A stretch of DNA of 64,000 nucleotides from Jiangella asiatica (lineage in GTDB: Bacteria > Actinomycetota > Actinomycetes > Jiangellales > Jiangellaceae), in assembly GCF_004349065.1 (NCBI RefSeq), contig NZ_SMKZ01000001.1, positions 124,001 through 188,000 of the forward strand, given 5' to 3'. The position numbers were made by a program, and so were the translations under genes. The notes below the pieces were generated by a model. The model was not told where the DNA came from and made no database searches. It saw only the letters and a program-made list of their open reading frames with translations. This document shows positions 518 to 30,313 of this stretch, one piece after another. The stretch's first letter is position 1. Each line of letters starts with the position of its first letter.

Positions 518-3500
518 CCGGTCCACCGTATGTCGGCGCCAAGGGTGACCTGCAAAGCGACCGGGTGAGTGGAGCGGCGCCCTCTGCGTCGACGTCCAGG
601 GTGCCCGGCCGGTACGACGACATCCACGTCCGCATCAGCTCGACTCGTGCGGCGTTGGCCTCGTTGCCGACGACGACGGGCTCCTCGTTGTAGGCCATGG
701 TGTCCGAGCGCCGGCGCAGCTTGATGTACAGGCCGGACGCCTCGATGGCGTAGCGCTCCATGTCGTCCTGGAGGGCGCCGACCACGGTGATGTTGTGGTC
801 GTTGCCGATGCGTTCGAACAGCGCGACGGCCTCGCGGCGGTGCTGCTTGCCGAGGTTGCGGCCGAGCTCGTCGAGGATGAGCAGCAGCGGACGGTCGGCG
901 CCGCGGGCCAGCGCCGCCGCGCAGACCAGCTTGACCGCCTTCTCGTCCATCTGCGCGGTGTTGCTGCGCAGGGTGTACGCCGACATCCGCTGGCCCTCCG
1001 CCCGCCGCCATGTGGGGCTGACGGTCCACCGCCATGGCTTGTCCGGCTCCGACGGCGGCTCGGGCTCGGGGAAGTCCAACCCGGCGCCGTAGCCGCCGTA
1101 CTCCTGGTCGAGCCGGTTGAACTCGGCGGCGACCTTCTTCAGCATCGCCTTGATGCCCGAGGCGAGCGACGTGCGGTGCGCGCGGGCGGTCTGTTCGGCC
1201 TCGCTGTGCCCGAGCCGGGCGGCGGCGAGGTCGGAGGTGCGCCGGGCCCGCTGGTCAGTGATCTGGGTGAGCTGGTGCTGGTCGTGCTCCTCGGTGTCGT
1301 CGAGGTGGGTGTCGAGCGCCCGCTGCAGCGGCGCGACCAGCGCGACCCGCGCCTCCAGGCTGCCGCCGACCCAGTTCTGGGTGACCAGCAGCTCGCGCAG
1401 CTCTGCGGTCAGCTCGTCCGGCGCGGTGCCGGGCGGGAAGCAGCGGACGGCCACCTCGTTGGTGAGCCGGGTGGCCGCTTCGTCCCAGTCGGCGGTGGTG
1501 CGGCCCTGGACGTCGTCGTCGAGATCCAGGAGGTGCCGGCGGGCCGCGTCGGGGGAGTCGCCCCAGGCCTTCTCGCGGTCGAGCAGGCCGATGGCGTCGC
1601 GCTGGGAGGTCAGGTCCAGCCGCCGCGCCTCGTGCTCGGCGAGCGTATGAGTCAACCGCTTGCGGGTGTCGCGCAGGCTGGTGACCCGCTCCTCGCGGGA
1701 GTTGTGCACGCCCAGCTCACGGGCGTACGCATCCTCGGCGTCGACCAGCTCCGGGACCAGTGCGTCGCGGCGGTCCTGGCGCTCGACACCGGACTCGCGC
1801 AGCTCGCCGATCTCCTTCTGGACGGCGTCGGCGCGCTCGGCGGCGTCAGCGGCCCGCACGCGCGCCTCCGCCCGAGCCAGCGCGGCGCGCGCCTGCTCGA
1901 CGACGGTGCCGGCGTCCTCCAGGGCGGCCGCGGCGGCGTCGTGGTCGGCGGTCGCGGCGGCGACGCGGGCCGGCTGCCCGGTGATCGGCTCGGCGAACCC
2001 GCCGACGGCGATGATCCCGGCGGCCTCGTCGACGACGGCGACGGCGGACGGGTCACCCTCCCCGCCGCCGAACCTGCCGCCCGCGCGGTCGGCCAGGGCG
2101 GCGCGGAACGCGGACAGGTCGCGGTCGCCGTCGGCCAGCACCAGCAGCGAGCCCGGCAACCGGGCCAGCGCGGCGGCCGCGCGGGCACCGTCGGCGCGCG
2201 GCACCACCACCGCCTCGCGGTACGGCGCCAGCCTCGGCTCCCACACGTCACGCTCGGCCGGGTCAGCCTCCACGACGTCGACCAGCGCCGTCGCCTCCAC
2301 GCCTGCCGCCCGCAGCAGCCCGATCTGCTCGGCCGCCACATCGTCGCCGGACTCCGTCGCGGTGAGCCGGCGGCGGGCGTCGTCGGCGGCGGCCCGGGCC
2401 AGCGCCTGCGCGCCCAGCGCCTCCTCCAGCGCGGTCCGGGCCTGCTCGAGCTCGGCTGCGGCCACAGGCGGGGTGCGGCCGTCGGCGGCCTGCGCCTGCT
2501 CGGTCAGGTGCCGGAGAGCCTCGCTGAGCCTCTCGACCTGCTGGGCGGCCGCGAGGTGGGTCGCCTCCAGCTCGCGGTCGCGGGCGATCAGCTCGTTGCG
2601 GCGGCGCTGTGCGGCCTGGAACCGGCGCGCGGACTCGTCGTCGTCGGTCAGCGCTGACAGCCGCTCCTCGACCGCCTCGATCTCAGCGCGTAGCTCGGCC
2701 TCGCGCTCGTCGAGATCGGCCAGCGCGCGCCGGGTGTGCTCGGCCTCCTCGACGCCGTCCAGCAGGTGCCGGGCGCAGCGCGCCCGCCAGGCCGTCCGCG
2801 CGTCGTCGAGCAGCTCCCGGGCCGCGAGCCGGCGGGCGATGCCGGCCTCCACGACGGCCATCTCGCTCTCCCACGCGGCGAGGTCGCGCTCGGCGTCGAT
2901 GACGTCGCCGCGGTGGCGGTGCTCGGCGGTGCGCAGCACCTGTTCGTGCTCCAGCTCGCGGTCCAGGCCGGTCAGCGTCGCGATGGCGTCGAAGATGCGG
3001 TGCGGCGGGAGGTCATTGAGCGGCTGCGCCAGCAGGTTCGCCGTCTGGCTGGACCGCACCGACGTCGACAGGAACGACACGCACCGCGCGTGCTGGCCGA
3101 ACAGCACCCGGGACAGCTGGCCGGCGTGGACGTCGGTGCGCCCGTTGCTGCGCGGCAGCGCCTGCCACAGCTCGTCGACCCGCGCGGCGCGCTCGGCCTC
3201 GGTGGCGCCGTACGGGACGTGCAACCCGTCGGTCCACCGCACGTCGAGGTAGGGCGCCTTGCGGTTGATGCGCAGCCAGACCGTGAGGGTCTCGGCGGTC
3301 GGGTCGGTGCGGCCGGTGGTGCCGGGCGGTGCGAAGACCCCGATGACGTAGCCGCGGTCGACGTTGGACCAGCTGCCCTCCTGCGCGGCCAGCTCGGCGG
3401 TGAACAGCAGCTCGGCCGCTCCGGCGGCACCGCTGGCGAGCTTCCACTGCTCGTCCGCGTGCAGCAGGCTCAGCGCGGCGATGAACGACGACTTCCCGGC

Positions 3501-22313: not shown

Positions 22314-24040
22314 CACTGGCACCAGGACCGGTCTCGACCCATCTCGGTGGGCCGCTGAGCGAGCACGTCGCGGCGGCCGCGGCCCAGCTCGCCCGGTCGA
22401 CGCCGTACTCCGTCGAGCTGGTCACGCAGGACGTCGTGTGGGCGGCCGGGTCGTCGCGGCTGTTCCAGGACTACCGCGGCGACCTGTCCGGCCGCTACCT
22501 CGACGCCGTCGACGCCGCCCTGGCCATGGGCCTGGCGGTCGACCGGGACAAGGCGGCGGCCGTGCTCGCCGCGGTGCTCGGCGCGCAGCAGCCGGACGGC
22601 CTGTTCGGCCCGCCGGCGCTGTCGACCCAGGTCGATCAGGGCAGCGCGTGGGGCCACGGCCGGCTGCTCGACGGGCTGCTGTCCGCGCGGTCGTGGGCGC
22701 CGGACCGGCTGACCGGCACGCTGGAGCACGCCACCGCGCAGCTGGCCGTGGCGATCGCCGCCCGGACGACCGCGTGGGGCCGATGGGTGGGCGCCGCCGG
22801 CCGGCAGAAGTTCCGGCTGGATCCGTTCTCCGTCGTGCTGCCCCTGGCCAGGTACGCAGCGGCCGCCGGCTCCGAGCCGGCCGCGGACGCCGCCCTGGAC
22901 GCGGCACTGGCCCTGGCCGAGGCGCTGCCGGAGGACGTCGAGCGGGCCCACATGCACGGCTACCTGCTGGCCCTGCGCGGGCAGGTCGAGGTCGGGCGGC
23001 TGACCGGTGCGGATCATCTGGTGCAGGACGCGCTCGCCCGGGTCGAGGTGGTCGCCGACCGGTACCAGCTGCCGCACGGCGGCGTGCCCGAGAGCGTCTC
23101 GCTGCCGTGGGACGTCAACACCGAGGGCTGCGGCATCGCGGACTGGGTGATGCTGAACCTGCGGCTCCACGAGCTGACCGGCGAGGAGGCGCTGCTGGAC
23201 CGGGCGGTTGTGGCGGCGGTCAACGCGCTGCTGCACACCCAGCGCGCGTCCGGCCACTTCGGCTGCGAGACGCTGTCCGGTGAGAGCGGCGTGCTGGTGA
23301 GCGACTACGCGCCGGAAGCGTGGTGGTGCTGCACGTTCCACGGGCTGCGCGCGCTGCACCACCTGGCCGAGCGCGCCGTCACCGTCGACGACGACGCCGT
23401 GCGCCTGCACGTTCCCATCGCCACGACCAGGCACGACGACGACGGCGCCACGGTCGTGGAGGTGACCGGGGACTACCCGTACGACGACGTCGTCACGGTG
23501 ACGGCCGGCCGGGCGCTGCGCGCTGGCGGCCTGTGGCTGCGGGTGCCCCCGACGGCGTCCGTCGCCGAGCTGCGGGTGGACGGCGAGCCGGTGCGTGCCG
23601 ACGCCGCCGGCGGGTGGGTGCGGCTGCCGGCTCCGCCGCCGGGGAGCCGGGTGACGCTCCGCCTGCGTCAGCACGAGTGGTTCTCGGTCGCTGGCACGCC
23701 GATGGTCCCGCCGTTCGCCAACACGACGCTGCCGGCACCGGACCTCTCCGACCGGCCGGTCGCGGTGTTCCGCGGACCGCTCCTGCTGGCCGCCGGCGCC
23801 GCCGACAACGACACCGAGGACGTGCTGCGCGGCCGGTTCCTGGTGCACCCGCGCGAACAGCCGGCGCTGGCACGCGACGACGACGGCCGCGAGCTGGCGA
23901 CGGTGAGCGGCCACGACAGCTTCCACGCCTCGCTCCGGCTGGCGCCGCTGGCCGGTGCCGACCGGGCCCGCAACGACCGGGCGGTGCGGGCGTGGTTCGG
24001 CGGGCTGCGGTACGAGCGGCCGGGGCTGCACGGCCACTGA
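22310..24040 (+). CDS. GH127-like glycosidase (beta-L-arabinofuranosidase fold)
   Basis: 576 aa. An (alpha/alpha)6 barrel is followed by beta-sandwich domains, as in GH127/DUF1680. The Glu-x-Cys pair and the tandem Cys of the Zn(Cys)3 active site are present: Glu272 and Cys274 in NTEGCGIADW, Cys340 and Cys341 in WWCCTFHG. In HypBA1 the equivalents are Glu338, Cys340, Cys417 and Cys418; the spacing (C274 to C340, 66) is similar to theirs. It has no signal peptide, so it is presumably cytosolic and acts on the imported sugar. GTG 22310 overlaps the permease stop by 4 bp. It could belong to GH146 or a related DUF1680 family, so substrate remains open. Confidence 0.82.
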   Translation: MTLAPGPVSTHLGGPLSEHVAAAAAQLARSTPYSVELVTQDVVWAAGSSRLFQDYRGDLSGRYLDAVDAALAMGLAVDRDKAAAVLAAVLGAQQPDGLFGPPALSTQVDQGSAWGHGRLLDGLLSARSWAPDRLTGTLEHATAQLAVAIAARTTAWGRWVGAAGRQKFRLDPFSVVLPLARYAAAAGSEPAADAALDAALALAEALPEDVERAHMHGYLLALRGQVEVGRLTGADHLVQDALARVEVVADRYQLPHGGVPESVSLPWDVNTEGCGIADWVMLNLRLHELTGEEALLDRAVVAAVNALLHTQRASGHFGCETLSGESGVLVSDYAPEAWWCCTFHGLRALHHLAERAVTVDDDAVRLHVPIATTRHDDDGATVVEVTGDYPYDDVVTVTAGRALRAGGLWLRVPPTASVAELRVDGEPVRADAAGGWVRLPAPPPGSRVTLRLRQHEWFSVAGTPMVPPFANTTLPAPDLSDRPVAVFRGPLLLAAGAADNDTEDVLRGRFLVHPREQPALARDDDGRELATVSGHDSFHASLRLAPLAGADRARNDRAVRAWFGGLRYERPGLHGH

Positions 24041-24049
24041 CGCACCGAC

Positions 24050-24094
24050 CCCTCGCACGGGGTACGTCCCGGTCGCCGATCCCCCGTGCGAGGG
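24050..24094 (+). terminator. Strong GC-rich hairpin after the GH127 operon
   Basis: CCCTCGCACGGGG at 24050-24062 pairs perfectly with CCCCGTGCGAGGG at 24082-24094, a 13-bp stem and 19-nt loop. It lies 10 bp after the GH127-like stop and before the ubiA-like gene on the same strand. There is no T-run, as is common for actinobacterial terminators. Confidence 0.65.
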
Positions 24095-25049: not shown

Positions 25050-26010
25050 GCCCGCGGGACAGCTCGTCGAGGCGGTCCAGCTCCTTCTCCGTCAGCCGCA
25101 GGTCCATCGCGGCCGCGCTCTCCGCGGCGTGCCGGGGCTTGGACGCGCCCGGGATCGCCACGACGGTGTCGCCGTAGAACGTGGTCAGCCAGCTCAGCGC
25201 GACCTGGCCGACGGTGGCGCCGTACGCGGTGCCGATGGCGCGCAACTCGTCGATCAGCGGGGCGGTGCGTGCGAGGGTCCTGGCGTTGAACCCGGCCAGC
25301 CGGCGGCGGATGCGGCGCATCGAGGTCAGGCGGCTGGGGTCGTCGTGGAACGCGCCGGTGAACAGGCCGGTGCGCAACGGTGACATCGCGATCAGCGTCA
25401 CGCCCAACCGGCGCGCGGCTTCCAGGACGCCCTCACGCTCGATGCCGCGCTCGACGAAGTTGATCTGGACCTGGTTCGAGGCGAGCGGCAGACCGTACTC
25501 GCGCAGCACCTGGTGGGCCCGCTCCATCTGCGCCGCGGAGAAGTTGCTCACCCCGATCGCGCCGATCTTCCCCGCCGCGCGCAGCTCGGCCATCGTGCGC
25601 ACCTGGCTGGCGATGGACGAAAAACCGCCGTGCGGCATGTGGATCTGATGGAGGTCGACGGGGTAGCCCTGCAGCGCGGCGTGCCGGGCGCCGATGGTGC
25701 GGCCGATGCTGGACGCCCGGCGCAGCAGCGGCGTCCACTTGGTGGCGATGGTGACCCGGCCCGGCTCGATGCCGTGCTCGCGCAGGGCCGTGGTCAAGGT
25801 GCGCTCGCAGTGGCCCTTGCCGTACATCTCGGCGGTGTCGAACCAGGTGATGCCACCGGCGAGGGCGGCGCGGACGATCTCGGTGGCAACCGGCTGCGTG
25901 ATGGTGGCGTAGAACCGGTCGGTGACCCCCGGGCCGCCGAACGGCAGGCAGCCCAGCCCGATCGGGGTGATCTCGAAGTCCGTGCGGCCCAGCCGTCGCG
26001 TCGTGACCAT
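25042..26010 (-). CDS. Aldo/keto reductase
   Basis: 322 aa, complete. The catalytic tetrad is visible as Asp58 and Tyr63 (FDTAEMYG), Lys91 (IATKW) and His124 (HQIHMPHG). LGVTLIAMSPLRTGLF and TVVAIPGASKPRHA near the C-terminus fit the NADP-binding region. It is a cytosolic NAD(P)H-dependent reductase of aldehydes or ketones. It diverges from a TetR regulator, its probable controller; an electrophile- or solvent-stress role is a reasonable but unproven guess. Confidence 0.9.
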   Translation of the reverse strand: MVTTRRLGRTDFEITPIGLGCLPFGGPGVTDRFYATITQPVATEIVRAALAGGITWFDTAEMYGKGHCERTLTTALREHGIEPGRVTIATKWTPLLRRASSIGRTIGARHAALQGYPVDLHQIHMPHGGFSSIASQVRTMAELRAAGKIGAIGVSNFSAAQMERAHQVLREYGLPLASNQVQINFVERGIEREGVLEAARRLGVTLIAMSPLRTGLFTGAFHDDPSRLTSMRRIRRRLAGFNARTLARTAPLIDELRAIGTAYGATVGQVALSWLTTFYGDTVVAIPGASKPRHAAESAAAMDLRLTEKELDRLDELSRGLS

Positions 26011-26030
26011 GATGACCCTCCGTCCAATGA

Positions 26031-26048
26031 TGAGACATAGCTATCTCA
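26031..26048. promoter_or_regulatory. Putative TetR operator
   Basis: TGAGACATAGCTATCTCA is an inverted repeat TGAGA-N8-TCTCA in the 85-bp gap between the divergent aldo/keto reductase and TetR starts. A further TGAGAC occurs at 26073-26078. This patch is markedly A/T-rich for the window. Confidence 0.45.
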
Positions 26049-26095
26049 ACACAAGACACGGTCATCTGACAATGAGACGTGCGTAGGATGGGCGC

Positions 26096-26656
26096 ATGGT
26101 CCGGCACCCGGCCCTGCGCGATCGCATCGCGGCGGGCATCCTCGACACCGCGGCGTCGGTGCTCGCCGAGCGCGGCGACGCGGCCAGCATGGCCGAGATC
26201 GCCCGGGCCGCCGGCGTCGGCCGGGCCACGCTGTACCGCTACTTCCCGACCCGCGAGGCTCTGCTACTCGGCCTGACCCGAGCCGCGTTCGAGGAGCTCA
26301 GCGTACGTATCGCCGACGCGTCCCTCGACACGGTGCCGCTGCGTGAGGGCGTGGCCCGGGCATCCCGCGCGTTCATCGCCGCCGGGGCCAGGTACGCCGC
26401 CGTCGTCCACGTCGGGAAAACCTACGTCGACGACCCCGCCGAGTTCGATCGCGCCGTGGCCGAGCCGGTGCGTGCCCTGCTGCGCCGCGGCGTCGCCGAC
26501 GGCGAGCTGCGCACCGATCTGCCCGCCGAGGTCCTGTTCGAGATGTTCACCGGCCTGCTCGAGCGGGGGCTGCGGCTGGTCGAGCGGGGCCAGCTGGGGG
26601 CCGAGCAAGCCGGCGCCGCCATCACGACGGTGTTCCTGGACGGCGCCTCCCGGTGA
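26096..26656 (+). CDS. TetR-family transcriptional regulator
   Basis: 186 aa. The N-terminal TetR helix-turn-helix (about 10-55) contains ILDTAASVLAERGDAASMAE, then IARAAGVGRATLYRYFPTREAL. The helical C-terminal domain binds an unknown ligand. It is divergent from the aldo/keto reductase, the standard layout for a local repressor. Its TGA is the first triplet of the hairpin at 26654. Confidence 0.93.
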   Translation: MVRHPALRDRIAAGILDTAASVLAERGDAASMAEIARAAGVGRATLYRYFPTREALLLGLTRAAFEELSVRIADASLDTVPLREGVARASRAFIAAGARYAAVVHVGKTYVDDPAEFDRAVAEPVRALLRRGVADGELRTDLPAEVLFEMFTGLLERGLRLVERGQLGAEQAGAAITTVFLDGASR

Positions 26657-26703
26657 TCATCAACGATTTCGGGCGCTATGACACCTGAGATCGTTGATGA
26701 TCA
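26654..26703. terminator. Bidirectional hairpin between convergent genes
   Basis: A 17-bp stem (26654-26670 with 26687-26703, one mismatch) with a 16-nt loop. The outer stem is TGATCATCAACGAT. The element includes both stop codons: TGA of the TetR gene at 26654-26656 and TGA of the convergent dehydrogenase at 26701-26703. The same outer stem reappears at 28445-28494. Confidence 0.75.
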
Positions 26704-27591
26704 TGGGCGCGGGCGGGAAAGCTGCTCGACCAGCAGGAGCAGCGCGCTGTGGTCCAGCGAGCCGTGGCCCTGGGCGCGCAGCGACGCCATCAGCTGCGCC
26801 ACCAGCGCGCCGGCGGGGACGACCACTCCTGCCTCACGCGCGGCGGCGGTGACGATCCCGAGGTCCTTGTGGTGCAGGTCCACCCGGAACCCCGGCGCGA
26901 AGTCGCGAGCCAGCATCGCCGGCCCCTTGCGGTCCAGGACGGCGCTGCCGGCCAGGCCGCCGCCCAGGACGGTGACCGCCCGTTCCCGGTCGACTCCGTG
27001 CGCGTCGAGGAACACCAGCGCCTCGGCTACCAGCTCCAGCGTGCCGGCGACGATGAGCTGGTTGGCCGCCTTCACCGTCTGGCCCGCCCCCGCCGGCCCC
27101 ATGTGCACGACCGTCGAGCCGAGCGCCTCGAGCACCGGCAGCACCTGATTGAACGCCGACTCGTCGCCGCCGGCCATGATGGACAGTGTGGCGTCGACGG
27201 CGCCCTGTTCGCCGCCGCTGACCGGTGCGTCCAGGACCGGCACGCCTCGCTCGGCGCCGGCCGCGGCCAGCTCGCGGGCGACGTCGGGCCGGATGGTGCT
27301 CATGTCGACGACGACCGTGCCCGCCGCGGCGGCGGCCAGGACGCCGTCGACGCCGTCGTCGCCGAGGATGACCGCCCGCACGTCGGGTGAGTCGGGGAGC
27401 ATGGTGATGACGACGTCCGCGCCGGCCACGGCCTCGGTCACCGATCCCGCGCCCCGGCCGCCCGCGGCCACCAGCCGTTCCACTTTCTCGGGGCTGCGGT
27501 TGTAGCCGGTGACGGTGAACCCTGCGGTGACCAGGTTGGCGGCCATCGGGCCGCCCATCACGCCGAGGCCGATGAATGCGATGGTCGTCAT
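26701..27591 (-). CDS. 3-hydroxyisobutyrate / tartronate semialdehyde reductase family
   Basis: 296-aa beta-hydroxyacid dehydrogenase. It has the NAD(P) loop IAFIGLGVMGGPMAANL, the substrate motif DAPVSGGEQGA (about residues 119-129) and the catalytic Lys in GAGQTVKAANQ (about 173). It interconverts a 3-hydroxy acid and its semialdehyde. It follows a hydroxypyruvate-isomerase-like gene with a 4-bp ATGA overlap, the pairing seen in glyoxylate/tartronate semialdehyde routes, so a GarR/GlxR-type role is likelier than valine catabolism; this rests on context. Confidence 0.85.
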   Translation of the reverse strand: MTTIAFIGLGVMGGPMAANLVTAGFTVTGYNRSPEKVERLVAAGGRGAGSVTEAVAGADVVITMLPDSPDVRAVILGDDGVDGVLAAAAAGTVVVDMSTIRPDVARELAAAGAERGVPVLDAPVSGGEQGAVDATLSIMAGGDESAFNQVLPVLEALGSTVVHMGPAGAGQTVKAANQLIVAGTLELVAEALVFLDAHGVDRERAVTVLGGGLAGSAVLDRKGPAMLARDFAPGFRVDLHHKDLGIVTAAAREAGVVVPAGALVAQLMASLRAQGHGSLDHSALLLLVEQLSRPRP

Positions 27592-28415
27592 GCGGCGCTG
27601 CCTCTTCCGTCGTCGGATGCGAACCAGGACTCTCGCCGAGCGAACGGGTCGGCGTCCGTGCTCACGTACTCCAGTGCGAACCAGCCGCCGTAGCCGCCGG
27701 CCGTGAGCTCGTCGACCCATGCCCTCAGCGGCAGCTCGCCGGTGCCGGGCGCGCCGCGGCCGGGTGCGTCGGCGAGCTGCACGTGCGCGATCCGGTCGCG
27801 GTGCCGGCGGATGGCCGCGGAAACGTCGTCGCCGTTGACGGTCAGATGGTAGACGTCGAGCAGCAGGCCGAGGCCGCCCTGGCCGGTCTCGGCCGCGACC
27901 CGGTCGATGACGGCGACGGCGTCGTCCGCGGTACGCAGCGGGTAGGCGTCCACACCGCTGACCGGCTCGATCAGCACCGTCGCGCCGATCTCGGCAAGCT
28001 CCGCGGCAACCTGCCCGAGGGCGCGGACGCCCACGTCGTCCTGCTCGGCCGGGTCGTGGCCGGGCAGCCGGTTGCCGTAGAGCGCGTTGAAGGATCGGCA
28101 GCCCAGCTCCTGGCCGATCGTCGCCGCGACGCGCGCGCTGGCCAGCAGCTCGCCGGTGCGGCCGGGCCACGAGACGACGCCGCGGTCGCCGCCGGGCAGG
28201 TCACCGCCATAGAGGTTCAGTCCGACCAGCCGCAGTCCCGCGTCGCGGACGGCGGCGACGAACGCCTCGACCTCGGCGTCCGCCGGGGTCGACGTGTCGA
28301 ACGGCCACCAGAACTCGACCGCCTCGAAGCCGGCCTCGCTTACGGCTTCGAGCCGCGCCGGCCACGGGCGGTCGGCGAGCAGGATGGAACAGTTCACGGC
28401 GAAACGTGGGGGCAC
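27588..28415 (-). CDS. Hydroxypyruvate isomerase-like TIM-barrel protein
   Basis: About 275 aa, AP endonuclease 2-like sugar isomerase fold. Hyi-family features are FAVNCSILL at the start, GFEAVEFWWPFD, GLRLVGLNLYGGDLPGGDRG, TVLIEPVSG with the metal-ligand Glu, LLLDVYHLTVNGDD, and GTGELPLRAWVDELTAGGYGGWFALEY. Family members isomerise hydroxypyruvate to tartronate semialdehyde, or epimerise keto sugars. GTG 28415 fits the family N-terminus; an upstream ATG at 28451 lies within the hairpin repeat and is less likely. It is coupled to the dehydrogenase downstream. Confidence 0.85.
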   Translation of the reverse strand: MPPRFAVNCSILLADRPWPARLEAVSEAGFEAVEFWWPFDTSTPADAEVEAFVAAVRDAGLRLVGLNLYGGDLPGGDRGVVSWPGRTGELLASARVAATIGQELGCRSFNALYGNRLPGHDPAEQDDVGVRALGQVAAELAEIGATVLIEPVSGVDAYPLRTADDAVAVIDRVAAETGQGGLGLLLDVYHLTVNGDDVSAAIRRHRDRIAHVQLADAPGRGAPGTGELPLRAWVDELTAGGYGGWFALEYVSTDADPFARRESWFASDDGRGSAA

Positions 28416-28444
28416 CCGTCCGATTATGGACGACGGCCCGCCCG

Positions 28445-28494
28445 TGATCATCAACGGTCGGCGACGTGACCGCGTCGCCAACCGTTGATGATCA
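28445..28494. repeat. Long-stem hairpin sharing an outer stem with 26654-26703
   Basis: A 22-bp stem (28445-28466 with 28473-28494, one mismatch) around a 6-nt loop. Its outer part TGATCATCAACGGT matches the hairpin at 26654 at 13 of 14 positions, whereas the inner stem differs. It lies between the small membrane protein gene (ends 28510) and the start of the Hyi-like gene, so on the minus strand it could terminate the former. Confidence 0.75.
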
Positions 28495-28509
28495 TCAGGT
28501 CGAACGAGC

Positions 28510-28767
28510 TCACTCCTTCTTGGTCCGCGCTGCCAGGCCCTCGGCGGTGCCCACCAGCAGGACGGCCGCGACGACCGCGACGATGAAACCGATGACGTTG
28601 AGCTCGAAGATGTCGCCGGTGCCGATCAGGTTGGCCACCAGCCCGCCGATCACCGACCCGGCCAGCCCGAGCAGCAGGGTGGCGATCCAGCCCAGGTTCT
28701 GCTTGCCCGGCTTGATCAGTCGCGCGAGCGCGCCGATGATGAGCCCAGCGATGATGAAGCCGATCAT
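28510..28767 (-). CDS. GlsB/YeaQ/YmgE transglycosylase-associated membrane protein
   Basis: 85 aa with three predicted membrane helices: IGFIIAGLIIGALARL, WIATLLLGLAGSVIGGLVANL and VIGFIVAVVAAVLLVG. The KPGKQNLGW segment between the first two helices is the family's hallmark. These small proteins are often stress-induced; their function is unknown despite the name. The ATG at 28767 has a strong AAGGAGG. Open frame upstream to 29091 is not part of the gene. Confidence 0.9.
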   Translation of the reverse strand: MIGFIIAGLIIGALARLIKPGKQNLGWIATLLLGLAGSVIGGLVANLIGTGDIFELNVIGFIVAVVAAVLLVGTAEGLAARTKKE

Positions 28768-28966
28768 GGGGATCCTCCTTCTCGGGCACGTCCGTACCCA
28801 GGTCTGCACCCAGCATCTCGCAGGTGGGGCCGTTCTGGCGGTTCTCGGCGCGGATACACGCCGGGTAACGGCGGCGACGGCGAGCACCTTCGGTGCGAAT
28901 GGGTACAAGCCTCGCGGCTGAGCGACCAGCAGGCGCGGTGCTCCCGCGCCCTCGTCACCGGAGGAG

Positions 28967-30313
28967 ATGAGTGCCGTGCAGGATCGACCAAGGGCTCGCG
29001 TGGTGATCGTCGGAGGCGGGTTCGCCGGGTTCAACGCCGCTCGCTCGCTGCGTCGCTCGTTGCCCGGCTCGCTACCGCCGGGGCGCGACATCGAGATCGT
29101 CCTGGTGAACCCGACGGACTACTTCCTCTACCTTCCGCTGCTGCCCGAGGTGTCGGCCGCGATCCTCGACCCGAGACGCATCACCACCTCGCTGCCGGCC
29201 GCGCTCCCGGGTGTTCGGCTGGCGCTGGGCGAGGTGACCGACGTGCACCCGGACGATCACCGCGTCGACTACGTCGACCCGGAAGGCGGAGAACACGTCC
29301 TCGACTACGACCGGCTGATCCTCTCCGTCGGCAGCGTGAACAAGCTGCTGCCGGTGCCGGGGGTGGCCGAGCACGCGCACGGCTTCCGTGGCATCCCGGA
29401 GGCGCTGTACCTGCGCGACCACGTCATCCGCCAGATCGAACTCGCCGCGGCCAGCCCCGACCCCGCCGAACGGGCCGCGCGCTGCACGTTCGTCGTCGTC
29501 GGCGCCGGCTACACCGGCACCGAGGTCGCCGCCCAGGGTCCGCTGTTCACGCGGGTGGTGGCCGGGCGCCACGCCGAGCTGCGCGGTCAGCCGATCCGCT
29601 GGCAGCTGCTGGACGTCGCGCCGAAGGTGCTGCCGGAGCTGGACCCGCGGCTGTCACGCACCGCGGACCGGGTGCTGCGGTCGCGCGGCGTCGAGGTGCT
29701 GATGGGGACGTCGGTCGAGGAGGCGACCGGTGACGGTGTCCGGCTCACCACCGGGGAGTTCGTGCCGACGCGGACGCTGGTGTGGTGCGTCGGGGTGCGG
29801 CCGGACCCGCTGGTCGAGCGGTCGGGCCTACCTACGCACGAGGGCCGGCTCGTGGTGAGTCCGACCCTGGCTGTGCCGGACTGCCGGGACGTGTACGCGT
29901 GCGGCGATGCCGCGGCCGTCCCCGACCTCACCCGCCCCGGCGAGGTGACGGCGATGACGGCGCAGCACGCGAGCCGGCAGGGCACGCTCGCCGGTCGCAA
30001 CGTCGCGGCATCACTCGGGTTCGGCTCGACGCGCGCGTACCGCCATTACGACCTCGGCTTCGTCGTCGACCTGGGCGGCACGCAGGCGGCGGCGAACCCG
30101 CTGCGTGTCCCGCTGTCCGGGCTGCCGGCGAAGGCGGTGACGCGCGGCTACCACCTGCTGTCGATGCCGGCGAACCGGGTGCGGACCGCGATCGACTGGC
30201 TGCTGGACTCGGTGACCGGGCGGCAGTCGGTGCAGCTGGGCCTGCTCCACCCGGGCGCCGTCCCGCTGGACAGCTCGTCGCCGGAGGTGCCGCGCCTCGC
30301 CCCGCTGCGATGA
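28967..30313 (+). CDS. Type II NADH dehydrogenase (Ndh-like)
   Basis: 448 aa. FAD-binding GGGFAG is at residues 16-21 and the NADH-binding GAGYTGTEVA near 180. YFLYLPLLPEVSAAILDPRRI and the C-terminal FVVDLGGTQAAANP with a hydrophobic tail region fit a peripheral membrane NDH-2. It oxidises NADH to reduce quinone without proton pumping. The ATG is preceded by GGAGGAGA. It stands alone; the next gene converges and ends 1 bp away. Confidence 0.87.
   Translation: MSAVQDRPRARVVIVGGGFAGFNAARSLRRSLPGSLPPGRDIEIVLVNPTDYFLYLPLLPEVSAAILDPRRITTSLPAALPGVRLALGEVTDVHPDDHRVDYVDPEGGEHVLDYDRLILSVGSVNKLLPVPGVAEHAHGFRGIPEALYLRDHVIRQIELAAASPDPAERAARCTFVVVGAGYTGTEVAAQGPLFTRVVAGRHAELRGQPIRWQLLDVAPKVLPELDPRLSRTADRVLRSRGVEVLMGTSVEEATGDGVRLTTGEFVPTRTLVWCVGVRPDPLVERSGLPTHEGRLVVSPTLAVPDCRDVYACGDAAAVPDLTRPGEVTAMTAQHASRQGTLAGRNVAASLGFGSTRAYRHYDLGFVVDLGGTQAAANPLRVPLSGLPAKAVTRGYHLLSMPANRVRTAIDWLLDSVTGRQSVQLGLLHPGAVPLDSSSPEVPRLAPLR

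Follow-up and report, generated by a model that had tools for sequence, protein, structure and literature searches.

MITEs (miniature inverted-repeat transposons) are small, palindromic and dispersed elements, present or absent at orthologous sites, and uptake-sequence terminators consist of paired DUS or USS hairpins. REP elements are known mainly from Proteobacteria; those of the GTAG and CGTC superfamilies are short, high-copy extragenic palindromes of 20–40 bp, one end of which carries an unpaired GTAG or CGTC tag, and RAYT transposases are tied to the spread of the GTAG type (PMC3733652). They are located mostly between convergent or unidirectional genes, less than 20 bp from 3' ends, with termini that often supply the stop codon TAG (PMC3733652). 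No transposase is known for the CGTC superfamily, REP dimers are common and REP families are species-specific (Di Nocera et al. 2013, PMC3733652). CGTC repeats are assigned to five named phyla, Actinobacteria not being among them, and that name was not met in the text (PMC3733652). Mycobacterial intrinsic terminators of the I-shaped kind lack a U-tract, and two works cited in PMC12288462 disagree, by their titles, on whether the mycobacterial polymerase needs one.

The DNA analysed here, the window, is a 64,000-nucleotide stretch of the Jiangella asiatica genome. Two hairpins within it are read, with a probability of roughly 0.6, as copies of one dispersed, non-autonomous REP-like palindrome of the Jiangellaceae that works as a 3'-end hairpin. 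The hairpins and their neighbouring genes are:

26096..26656, + strand: TetR-type regulator gene (Pfam TetR_N, E 1.8e-14); the TGA at 26654-26656 that ends it is also the opening triplet of element 1
26650..26707, no strand assigned: hairpin element 1, a 58-bp palindrome with a 50-bp core at 26654-26703, core subfamily B (ATTTCGGGCG..)
26701..27591, - strand: GarR-like beta-hydroxyacid dehydrogenase gene (Pfam NAD_binding_2, E 1.8e-54; NAD_binding_11, E 5.5e-38)
27588..28427, - strand: Hyi-like TIM-barrel isomerase gene (Pfam AP_endonuc_2, E 1.4e-36), start codon uncertain
28441..28498, no strand assigned: hairpin element 2, 58 bp with a 50-bp core at 28445-28494, core subfamily A (GTCGGCGACG..)
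28510..28767, - strand: GlsB/YeaQ-like small membrane protein gene, with element 2 past its stop

Both hairpins, proposed earlier by a sequence-only reading, proved to be real, 50 bp long and exactly placed. RNA folding gave -38.7/-32.8 kcal/mol on the two strands of element 1 (z -8.3/-6.8) and -40.7/-46.8 kcal/mol on those of element 2 (z -7.2/-9.7), with 0 shuffles as good in either case. The core of element 1 begins TGATCATCAACGAT and ends ATCGTTGATGATCA, that of element 2 begins TGATCATCAACGGT and ends ACCGTTGATGATCA, and the exact 12-mer arm occurs four times across the window, always within these two elements. The common outer arms and differing interiors that had been noticed correspond to two subfamilies, distinguished by their cores, of a single dispersed element. 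Element 1 does hold the stops of both convergent genes, the outer TGA on each strand ending the TetR-type gene (26656) or, as the last triplet of the element, the GarR-like gene (26701). Element 2 had been placed upstream of the Hyi-like gene, which is correct, but the GlsB/YeaQ-like stop had been overlooked; lying 15 nt past that stop, element 2 is likewise at a gene 3' end. The further suggestion, that the hairpins let the Hyi/GarR-like pair move as a cassette, was not borne out, the pair being adjacent in 12/12 relatives examined (G001-G012) with or without an element behind the GarR-like gene. With some 100 copies dispersed over the genome, a distance of 1.8 kb between two of them calls for no special explanation.

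Genes were called by codon bias, with a program developed in-house and trained on the window; its start codons are unreliable, and the start it chose for the Hyi-like gene (28451) falls within element 2. The name GlsB/YeaQ-like is presumed from the appearance of the sequence, the product of the 28510-28767 gene having 0 Pfam matches at E 0.001. An Rfam scan of window positions 26000-29200 returned only matches far below gathering scores, and one of 12 loci (class I, class II and look-alike hairpins of other families) gave a single match, beside an element and none on it. Plasmid and phage collections, each queried with one hairpin, gave 0 matches, a consensus terminator scan called neither element, and among the literature matches listed there was no description of this repeat.

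The 7.03-Mb genome contains 60 exact arm pairs, a number that rises to 98 when up to 3 arm mismatches are allowed, against 0 for the reversed-pattern control; the absence of further copies, which would have refuted the sequence-only reading, was not borne out. Like a REP, this is a short extragenic palindrome in high copy (98 copies). It is nearly always 50 bp long, with the foot CCCATGATCAT, a covarying middle stem and an apical loop of about YCATGR. Both termini are the paired foot CCCATGATCA/TGATCATGGG, and neither bears the unpaired GTAG or CGTC tetranucleotide of REPs. In the 50 copies read, a subset of the 98 made up of the exact-arm copies that were listed, taken in the order of the contigs, the flanks CCCA..TGGG are conserved and the palindrome is really about 58 bp; the 50 bp include the TGATCA feet and the 58 bp add CCCA/TGGG. 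Among copies selected only by their foot, at any length from 48 to 52 bp, 118/130 were exactly 50 bp. Complementarity reaches further into the flanks in runs of 9-12 bp in 4/50 copies; copy-specific extension as a general trait was rejected, offsets 5-14 being complementary in 160/500 cases against 156 expected. Copy pairs less than 300 bp apart were met only twice in the loci read. Inspection of 18 loci with a partnerless arm revealed a hairpin of class I or class II in 17, one being unclear; no arm was shown standing alone, and an uptake-sequence model was discarded.

Pairing is conserved over sequence in the middle stem. For the repeat-family alignment, 50-bp copies with exact foot or arms were taken and had to pair at 15 of the outer 20 positions, a selection that in itself makes the foot invariant; 5/130 foot-only copies would fail this pairing filter. 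In 56 sequences 89.3% of cells are paired and 186 are double-changed, whereas shuffles gave 68.3 double-changed cells and slid controls 34-81. The excess holds with no pairing filter, both in the 50 exact-arm copies, whose core pairs show 59 double-changed cells versus 16 in shuffles, and in 61 copies from relatives picked by foot alone (180 versus 71). This covariation argues against the very improbable reading in which a dimeric protein with a nucleoid, replication or regulatory role binds the palindrome as double-stranded DNA. Such a site would suit a foot on both sides at near-fixed spacing and the presence of some copies between divergent genes, but a middle stem that changes sequence yet stays paired is unneeded for dimer binding, and the 3'-end bias described below also stands against it. 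A working RNA strand should show more G-U than A-C mismatches; this asymmetry is weak, with 18 against 9 when 25 tandem copies were first compared and 54 against 38 in a larger tandem set (p 0.12).

Like REPs, most copies sit downstream of a gene, in convergent or unidirectional pairs, and like intrinsic terminators they form a stable hairpin close behind the stop codon. None of the 50 read in the own genome, and 1/60 in relatives, is inside a called gene. Of the 49 own copies that could be classified, 25 are tandem, 16 convergent and 8 divergent, and the 52 classified in relatives comprise 25 tandem, 23 convergent and 4 divergent. Convergent settings are enriched (16/49 versus 27/202 background gene pairs, p 0.0027), while divergent settings are not depleted against gene pairs (8/49 versus 30/202, p 0.82) and are so only by intergenic length (p 0.0018). 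In 19/25 tandem copies the upstream stop is closer than the downstream start. Elements are positioned at the stop codon or 6-27 nt past it, and at 25/58 adjacent gene 3' ends the stop is the element's own TGA. A U-tract past the hairpin is absent, the 9 nt that follow it containing no more than 3 T at 58/58 adjacent 3' ends.

In the RNA, the elements probably function as hairpins at the ends of messages, where they would hinder or end transcription or block 3'-to-5' decay, and between convergent genes such a hairpin could work in both directions. The earlier proposal of a family of REP-like or terminator-like elements stands, given the ~100 copies, the strong 3'-end bias and the covariation; the two-way terminator role attached to it is plausible only, as there is no U-tract and 8/49 copies are divergent. 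Counted against the main reading are these same 8/49 copies, lying between genes where a terminator is unneeded, the missing U-tract, the weak G-U excess and, as set out below, element-less gene ends without a strong hairpin, the Y1 search in five genomes and insertion junctions without a consistent target duplication. The Y1 transposase (RAYT, PF01797) was found in 0/5 genomes at E 0.001, while 5/14 control genomes gave a match, and a classical RAYT-driven REP was rejected on the result from these five genomes. With neither a U-tract nor, in five genomes, a Y1 transposase, termination and the spreading enzyme are both putative.

Covariance-model searches, in which at most 93 and 114 candidates were scored per genome, both strands counted, found at least 6 matches, both strands again counted, in 21/22 genomes of the family, which we take to be Jiangellaceae. 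Subfamilies are lineage-specific, and the element is present or absent at orthologous gene ends. The L056 element is absent at the orthologous site in 5/5 relatives, sister G003 among them, that of L058 in 4/5, and G002, G007 and G008 have none at the gene end of element 1. At the end of element 2's gene, sister G003 and also G005 carry hairpins unrelated to the element. A strong hairpin (z below -2.5) occurs at 3/27 element-less orthologous ends versus 8/195 control ends, with z-scores at element-less ends shifted slightly towards other structure (p 0.014); as most lack a strong hairpin, the element is not required there. At 10 sites shared with G003, interior identity is 0.69 between own and G003 copies, 0.64 between non-orthologous pairs and 0.82 among the own copies there, 7 pairs being no more similar than unrelated copies. 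No orthologue signal was seen with the first 7 sites (1334/5040 permutations) and a weak one with 10 (p 0.028). Copies probably arise and are overwritten in a REP-like manner, through transposition by some enzyme or gene conversion between copies. It is possible, if rather doubtful, that this is a REP-like system without RAYT in which gene-end sites persist between sister species and hairpins are overwritten by the lineage's own subfamily, by conversion via the constant foot or because insertions keep hitting the gene ends already occupied; a second and longer family of hairpins, whose half-arms match, would then use the same machinery.

Two other explanations compete with a dispersed REP-like palindrome. 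The elements might be purely bidirectional intrinsic terminators of the I-shaped, U-less kind, immobile and selected gene by gene, their likeness reflecting terminator constraint. Their position at or shortly past stops, the convergent enrichment, a foot TGA that ends translation ahead of the hairpin, the scarcity of strong hairpins at other gene ends (just 8/195) and the unrelated hairpins behind element 2's gene in G003 and G005 all suit this, yet a terminator needs neither ~100 near-identical cores nor genome-specific subfamilies, any one gene end gains or loses the element readily, orthologous ends without it mostly have no other hairpin in its place and 8/49 copies are divergent, which makes it unlikely. 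Distinctly less probable is a MITE whose arms are recognised by a classical DDE transposase, inserted at a TGATCA-like target that forms the foot. Orthologous sites lacking the element agree with this, as do element-less gene ends that read TGATCA or CCATGATC at window copy 1 (G002, G007, G008), L039 (G009) and L038 (G001, G002, G007). However, TGATC-like native gene ends were seen at these 3 sites only, and a universal TGATCA target was rejected since it fails at L030, L011, L005 and L053, the native stop lying outside TGATCA in 6/6 element-less sites at L030 and 6/6 at L011. TGATCA also abuts stops without any element, in 3/27 convergent background pairs; neither a long arm-to-arm element nor a transposase gene between arms was met in the genome stretches read, and partnerless arms mostly belong to class I or II hairpins. 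By-eye alignments of filled and element-less sites gave no consistent target duplication at insertion junctions.

In comparison with known systems, the element resembles REPs in being short, high-copy, extragenic, near 3' ends, lineage-specific and a supplier of stop codons (here TGA), and differs from them in its 50-bp length, its two like ends without a one-end tag and the rarity of close copy pairs in the loci read. It shares with the CGTC superfamily that no transposase was found (Y1, five genomes). If a large REP-like family does exist in an actinobacterial family without Y1 transposase (five genomes), this would raise the question of what else can spread such palindromes. With MITEs it has in common small size, palindromic form, dispersal and variable presence at orthologous sites, but no consistent target duplication was seen by eye and, in the stretches read, no parental transposon was met. 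As in uptake-sequence terminators, a conserved short word forms inverted pairs behind genes, although here no inspected locus showed the word by itself. The ~100 copies, U-less hairpins that are nearly identical yet follow different genes of a high-GC actinobacterium, would be a natural set for testing the disputed U-less termination. The strong hairpin at or just past the stop with no U-tract is shared with the U-less I-shaped mycobacterial terminators, as described in PMC12288462 and PMC8355165, whereas the element, unlike these, has a common sequence and nearly fixed length across ~100 unrelated genes, has been amplified in a lineage-specific manner and lies in some cases between divergent genes.

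Two hairpins bracketing a Hyi/GarR-like gene pair, noted in a sequence-only reading, were found exactly at their reported positions, and both fold strongly on either strand (z -6.8 to -9.7; no shuffle equally good). The features concerned are:

24050-24094: hairpin CCCTCGCACGGGG..CCCCGTGCGAGGG, not of the family described here, 9 nt past the stop codon of a gene whose end is at 24040
26654-26703: element 1, between the convergent TetR-type and GarR-like genes
26701-27591, minus strand: GarR-like gene
27588-28427, minus strand: Hyi-like gene
28445-28494: element 2
28510-28767, minus strand: GlsB/YeaQ-like gene, named by the look of its sequence

A genome-wide search for the inverted pair TGATCATCAACG-N12..40-CGTTGATGATCA returned 60 places in the 7.03 Mb genome (134 contigs) against 0 in a reversed control, so further copies exist; a search at a constant spacing of 26 that tolerated up to 3 mismatches gave 98. 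All 50 exact copies among the matches listed are 50 bp long (36-64 permitted by the search). Two cores account for most of them, GTTGGCGACG..CGTCGCCAAC as in element 2 and ATYTCGGGTG..CACCCGARAT as in element 1, with a YCATGR-like central loop mostly common to both. Since conservation extends into the flanks (left CCCA, right TGGG), the unit of this TGATCA-footed element, here class I, is about 58 bp. Across all loci read in the family (genomes taken as Jiangellaceae), 118 of 130 copies identified through the foot alone are exactly 50 bp and the others 49, 51 or 52 (48-52 allowed).

In an alignment of 56 sequences and 58 gap-free columns, whose copies were picked by foot or arms and then passed through a pairing filter, 89.3% of cells are paired, compared with 77.4% after shuffling; both-sided changes are seen in 18 of 26 pairs, and no pair varies on one side only. 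Double-changed cells number 186; shuffles give 68.3 and slid controls 34-81, the latter a partial guard, as kinship alone can lift sequences somewhat above shuffles without structure. The 8 invariant foot pairs partly reflect how copies were selected, because these were found via foot or arms and filtered for pairing. The covariation result stands without the filter: in the 50 exact-arm copies, 91% of the cells of the 10 core pairs are paired (78% in shuffles), with 59 double-changed cells against 16 (maximum 25), and 61 relatives' copies chosen by foot only give 180 against 71 (maximum 91). Strand evidence for a hairpin at the RNA level is only suggestive: tandem copies have 54 G-U mismatches and 38 A-C ones (p 0.12).

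Placement was judged from gene calls around 50 copies, made with a codon-bias caller trained on the window. None of the 50 lies inside a called gene; 25 lie between tandem, 16 between convergent and 8 between divergent genes, with 1 at an edge, while 202 nearby background pairs comprise 145, 27 and 30, respectively. Convergent sites are thus enriched (p 0.0027; by intergenic length, 16/49 against a 4% share), and divergent sites are depleted by length only (p 0.0018), not by count (p 0.82). Of the 25 copies between tandem genes, 19 lie closer to the upstream stop than to the downstream start. At 25 of 58 adjacent 3' ends the stop codon is the TGA formed by the element's first three bases, and just 2 ends extend beyond it into the element, a strong frame bias (25/27 against one third expected); most remaining ends stop 6-27 nt before the element. 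Among relatives the TGA is the stop at 20 of 78 ends, and 7 read further in. Element 2 does lie upstream of the Hyi-like gene, as first described, but also 15 nt behind the GlsB/YeaQ-like stop. Directly behind this gene, unrelated strong hairpins occur in the sister species G003 (L112/L093) and in another relative, G005 (L116).

The best-supported reading of class I is a predicted RNA hairpin at message ends, because translation ends at the foot, immediately ahead of the hairpin, and copies between convergent genes are over-represented. Of the earlier proposal of bidirectional terminators or REP-like elements, the REP-like part is supported; a strict terminator is disfavoured by the missing U-tract (at most 3 T in the 9 nt after the hairpin at 58/58 ends), the 8 divergent copies and the few substitute hairpins at element-less ends. 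Another strong hairpin was present at 3 of 27 orthologous ends lacking the element (controls 8/195), the z-scores of such ends being shifted slightly towards structure (p 0.014). Because these ends are usually without another strong hairpin, the hairpin is tolerated or useful at gene ends, not required.

That the hairpins had let the gene pair move as a cassette finds no backing: GarR and Hyi are adjacent in 12/12 relatives, whether or not an element follows GarR, and nothing suggests their movement by the two hairpins. Within 170 nt behind the GarR end, G004, G009 and G010 have an element directly at the stop, its core differing from the window copy's, and G006 has one about 70 nt away; none was seen in the remaining 8 of 12. 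The TetR and GarR stops abut, element-free, as TGATCA in G002 and G007, and in G008 GarR abuts a different convergent gene in the same way.

For G003, 24 own sites were compared and 17 judged (L005, L007, L025, L026, L039, L042 and L059 excluded): an element is present at 10 and absent at 5, namely L056, L030, L011, L001 and window copy 1; the last 2, L044 and window copy 2, show an unrelated hairpin. The hairpin at L044 (L246) is a different 52-nt palindrome, TGATCAACAGGCC..GGCCTGTTGATCA, beginning with the gene's stop codon, so other TGATCA-footed hairpins exist. At the 10 common sites, of which L051 is common by its right-hand flank only, identity over the 36-nt interior is 0.69 between orthologues, 0.64 between non-orthologous pairs (permutation 0.028) and 0.82 among the own copies. 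By pair, L040, L058 and L038 reach 0.83-0.89 and the other 7 0.56-0.67; in the first 7 sites alone, with flank identity of 78-92%, the orthologue signal is absent. Turnover at common sites may reflect conversion, re-insertion or, at individual sites, simple divergence. As distance to the gene end differs in some pairs (L053), these may stem from separate insertions into one and the same gene end; at L040 and L048, where position looks identical in the alignment, sequence has seemingly changed in place. At the L048 gene end, G003 (L163) and G007 (L178) hold several hundred extra, partly similar bases, as if the spot took insertions repeatedly.

Exact arms occur in 11 of 40 genomes (own included), every one in the family; in a collection of 84,980 species, from which records near the window's genome were possibly excluded, 30 stretches are all from Jiangella, Haloactinopolyspora or Phytoactinopolyspora. 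The foot alone (TGATCAT-N34..38-ATGATCA) marks 21 of 22 genomes in the family, the own one among them, with up to 209 copies, the element-less genome being 81% complete, and the outer arm varies among subfamilies (AACG, AAGG, CAGG, GGCG, AACC, GAACAGT). Beyond the family, 46 of 371 genomes from the rest of the class match the foot, 41 with 1-2 matches and G026, G050, G101, G109 and G258 with 3-10. Seventeen such loci were read: 11 are poorly paired (at most 12 of the outer 20), 8 of these inside called genes, and 5 well paired. A covariance model of 56 copies matches 21/22 family genomes and 4/38 others, only G026 more than once; some 50-bp copies in G026, with a CTATAG loop, are class I in appearance. 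Several further actinobacterial families of the class have hairpins of the form TGATCATGCA..TGCATGATCA, whose length and loop vary (L210, L211, L216, L223, L226).

A second, longer class shares the TGATCATCAACGATC arm with class I and spans about 108 bp between TGATCA feet in the own genome, with an inner stem around GCTTCACCA..TGGTGAAGC. Twenty loci were taken from the arm listing, 2 being known 108-bp pairs; the 18 whose arm had no exact partner comprise 9 with class I copies whose partner arm is mutated, 8 with copies of the longer class and 1 that is ambiguous (L204). Loci of the longer class (model R2) are L190, L191, L039:515-622, L193, L194, L196-L199, L203 and L206, and a 9-copy model matches 17/19 family genomes (own included) and 1/12 others. 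In 7 relatives' copies the TGATCATCxxxGATC arm is intact on at most one side; several xxx variants are similar to class I ones, and several outer ends of relatives' copies resemble CTGTCCACA/GTGGACAC. Such likenesses are hints that the two classes may be linked by common descent or exchange. Beside the degraded copy at L193 lies a match to the Rfam sRNA Ms_IGR-5 (1070-1286, minus strand, 86.5 bits).

The literature matches listed, with subscription journals mostly outside their scope, held no description of the class I sequence or of Jiangella repeats. U-less terminators offer a further comparison class (PMC12288462, PMC8355165). The closest likeness is to REP elements, which, in one study, lie no more than 20 bp from either 3' end between convergent genes and near the upstream gene between unidirectional ones, their termini supplying stop codons (PMC3733652); class I matches this published pattern in placement and stop codons, but lacks the unpaired GTAG or CGTC end that tags the superfamilies. 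As this tag is missing and a Y1 transposase had no match in the 5 genomes searched, class I is REP-like, not a REP of the GTAG/CGTC superfamilies.
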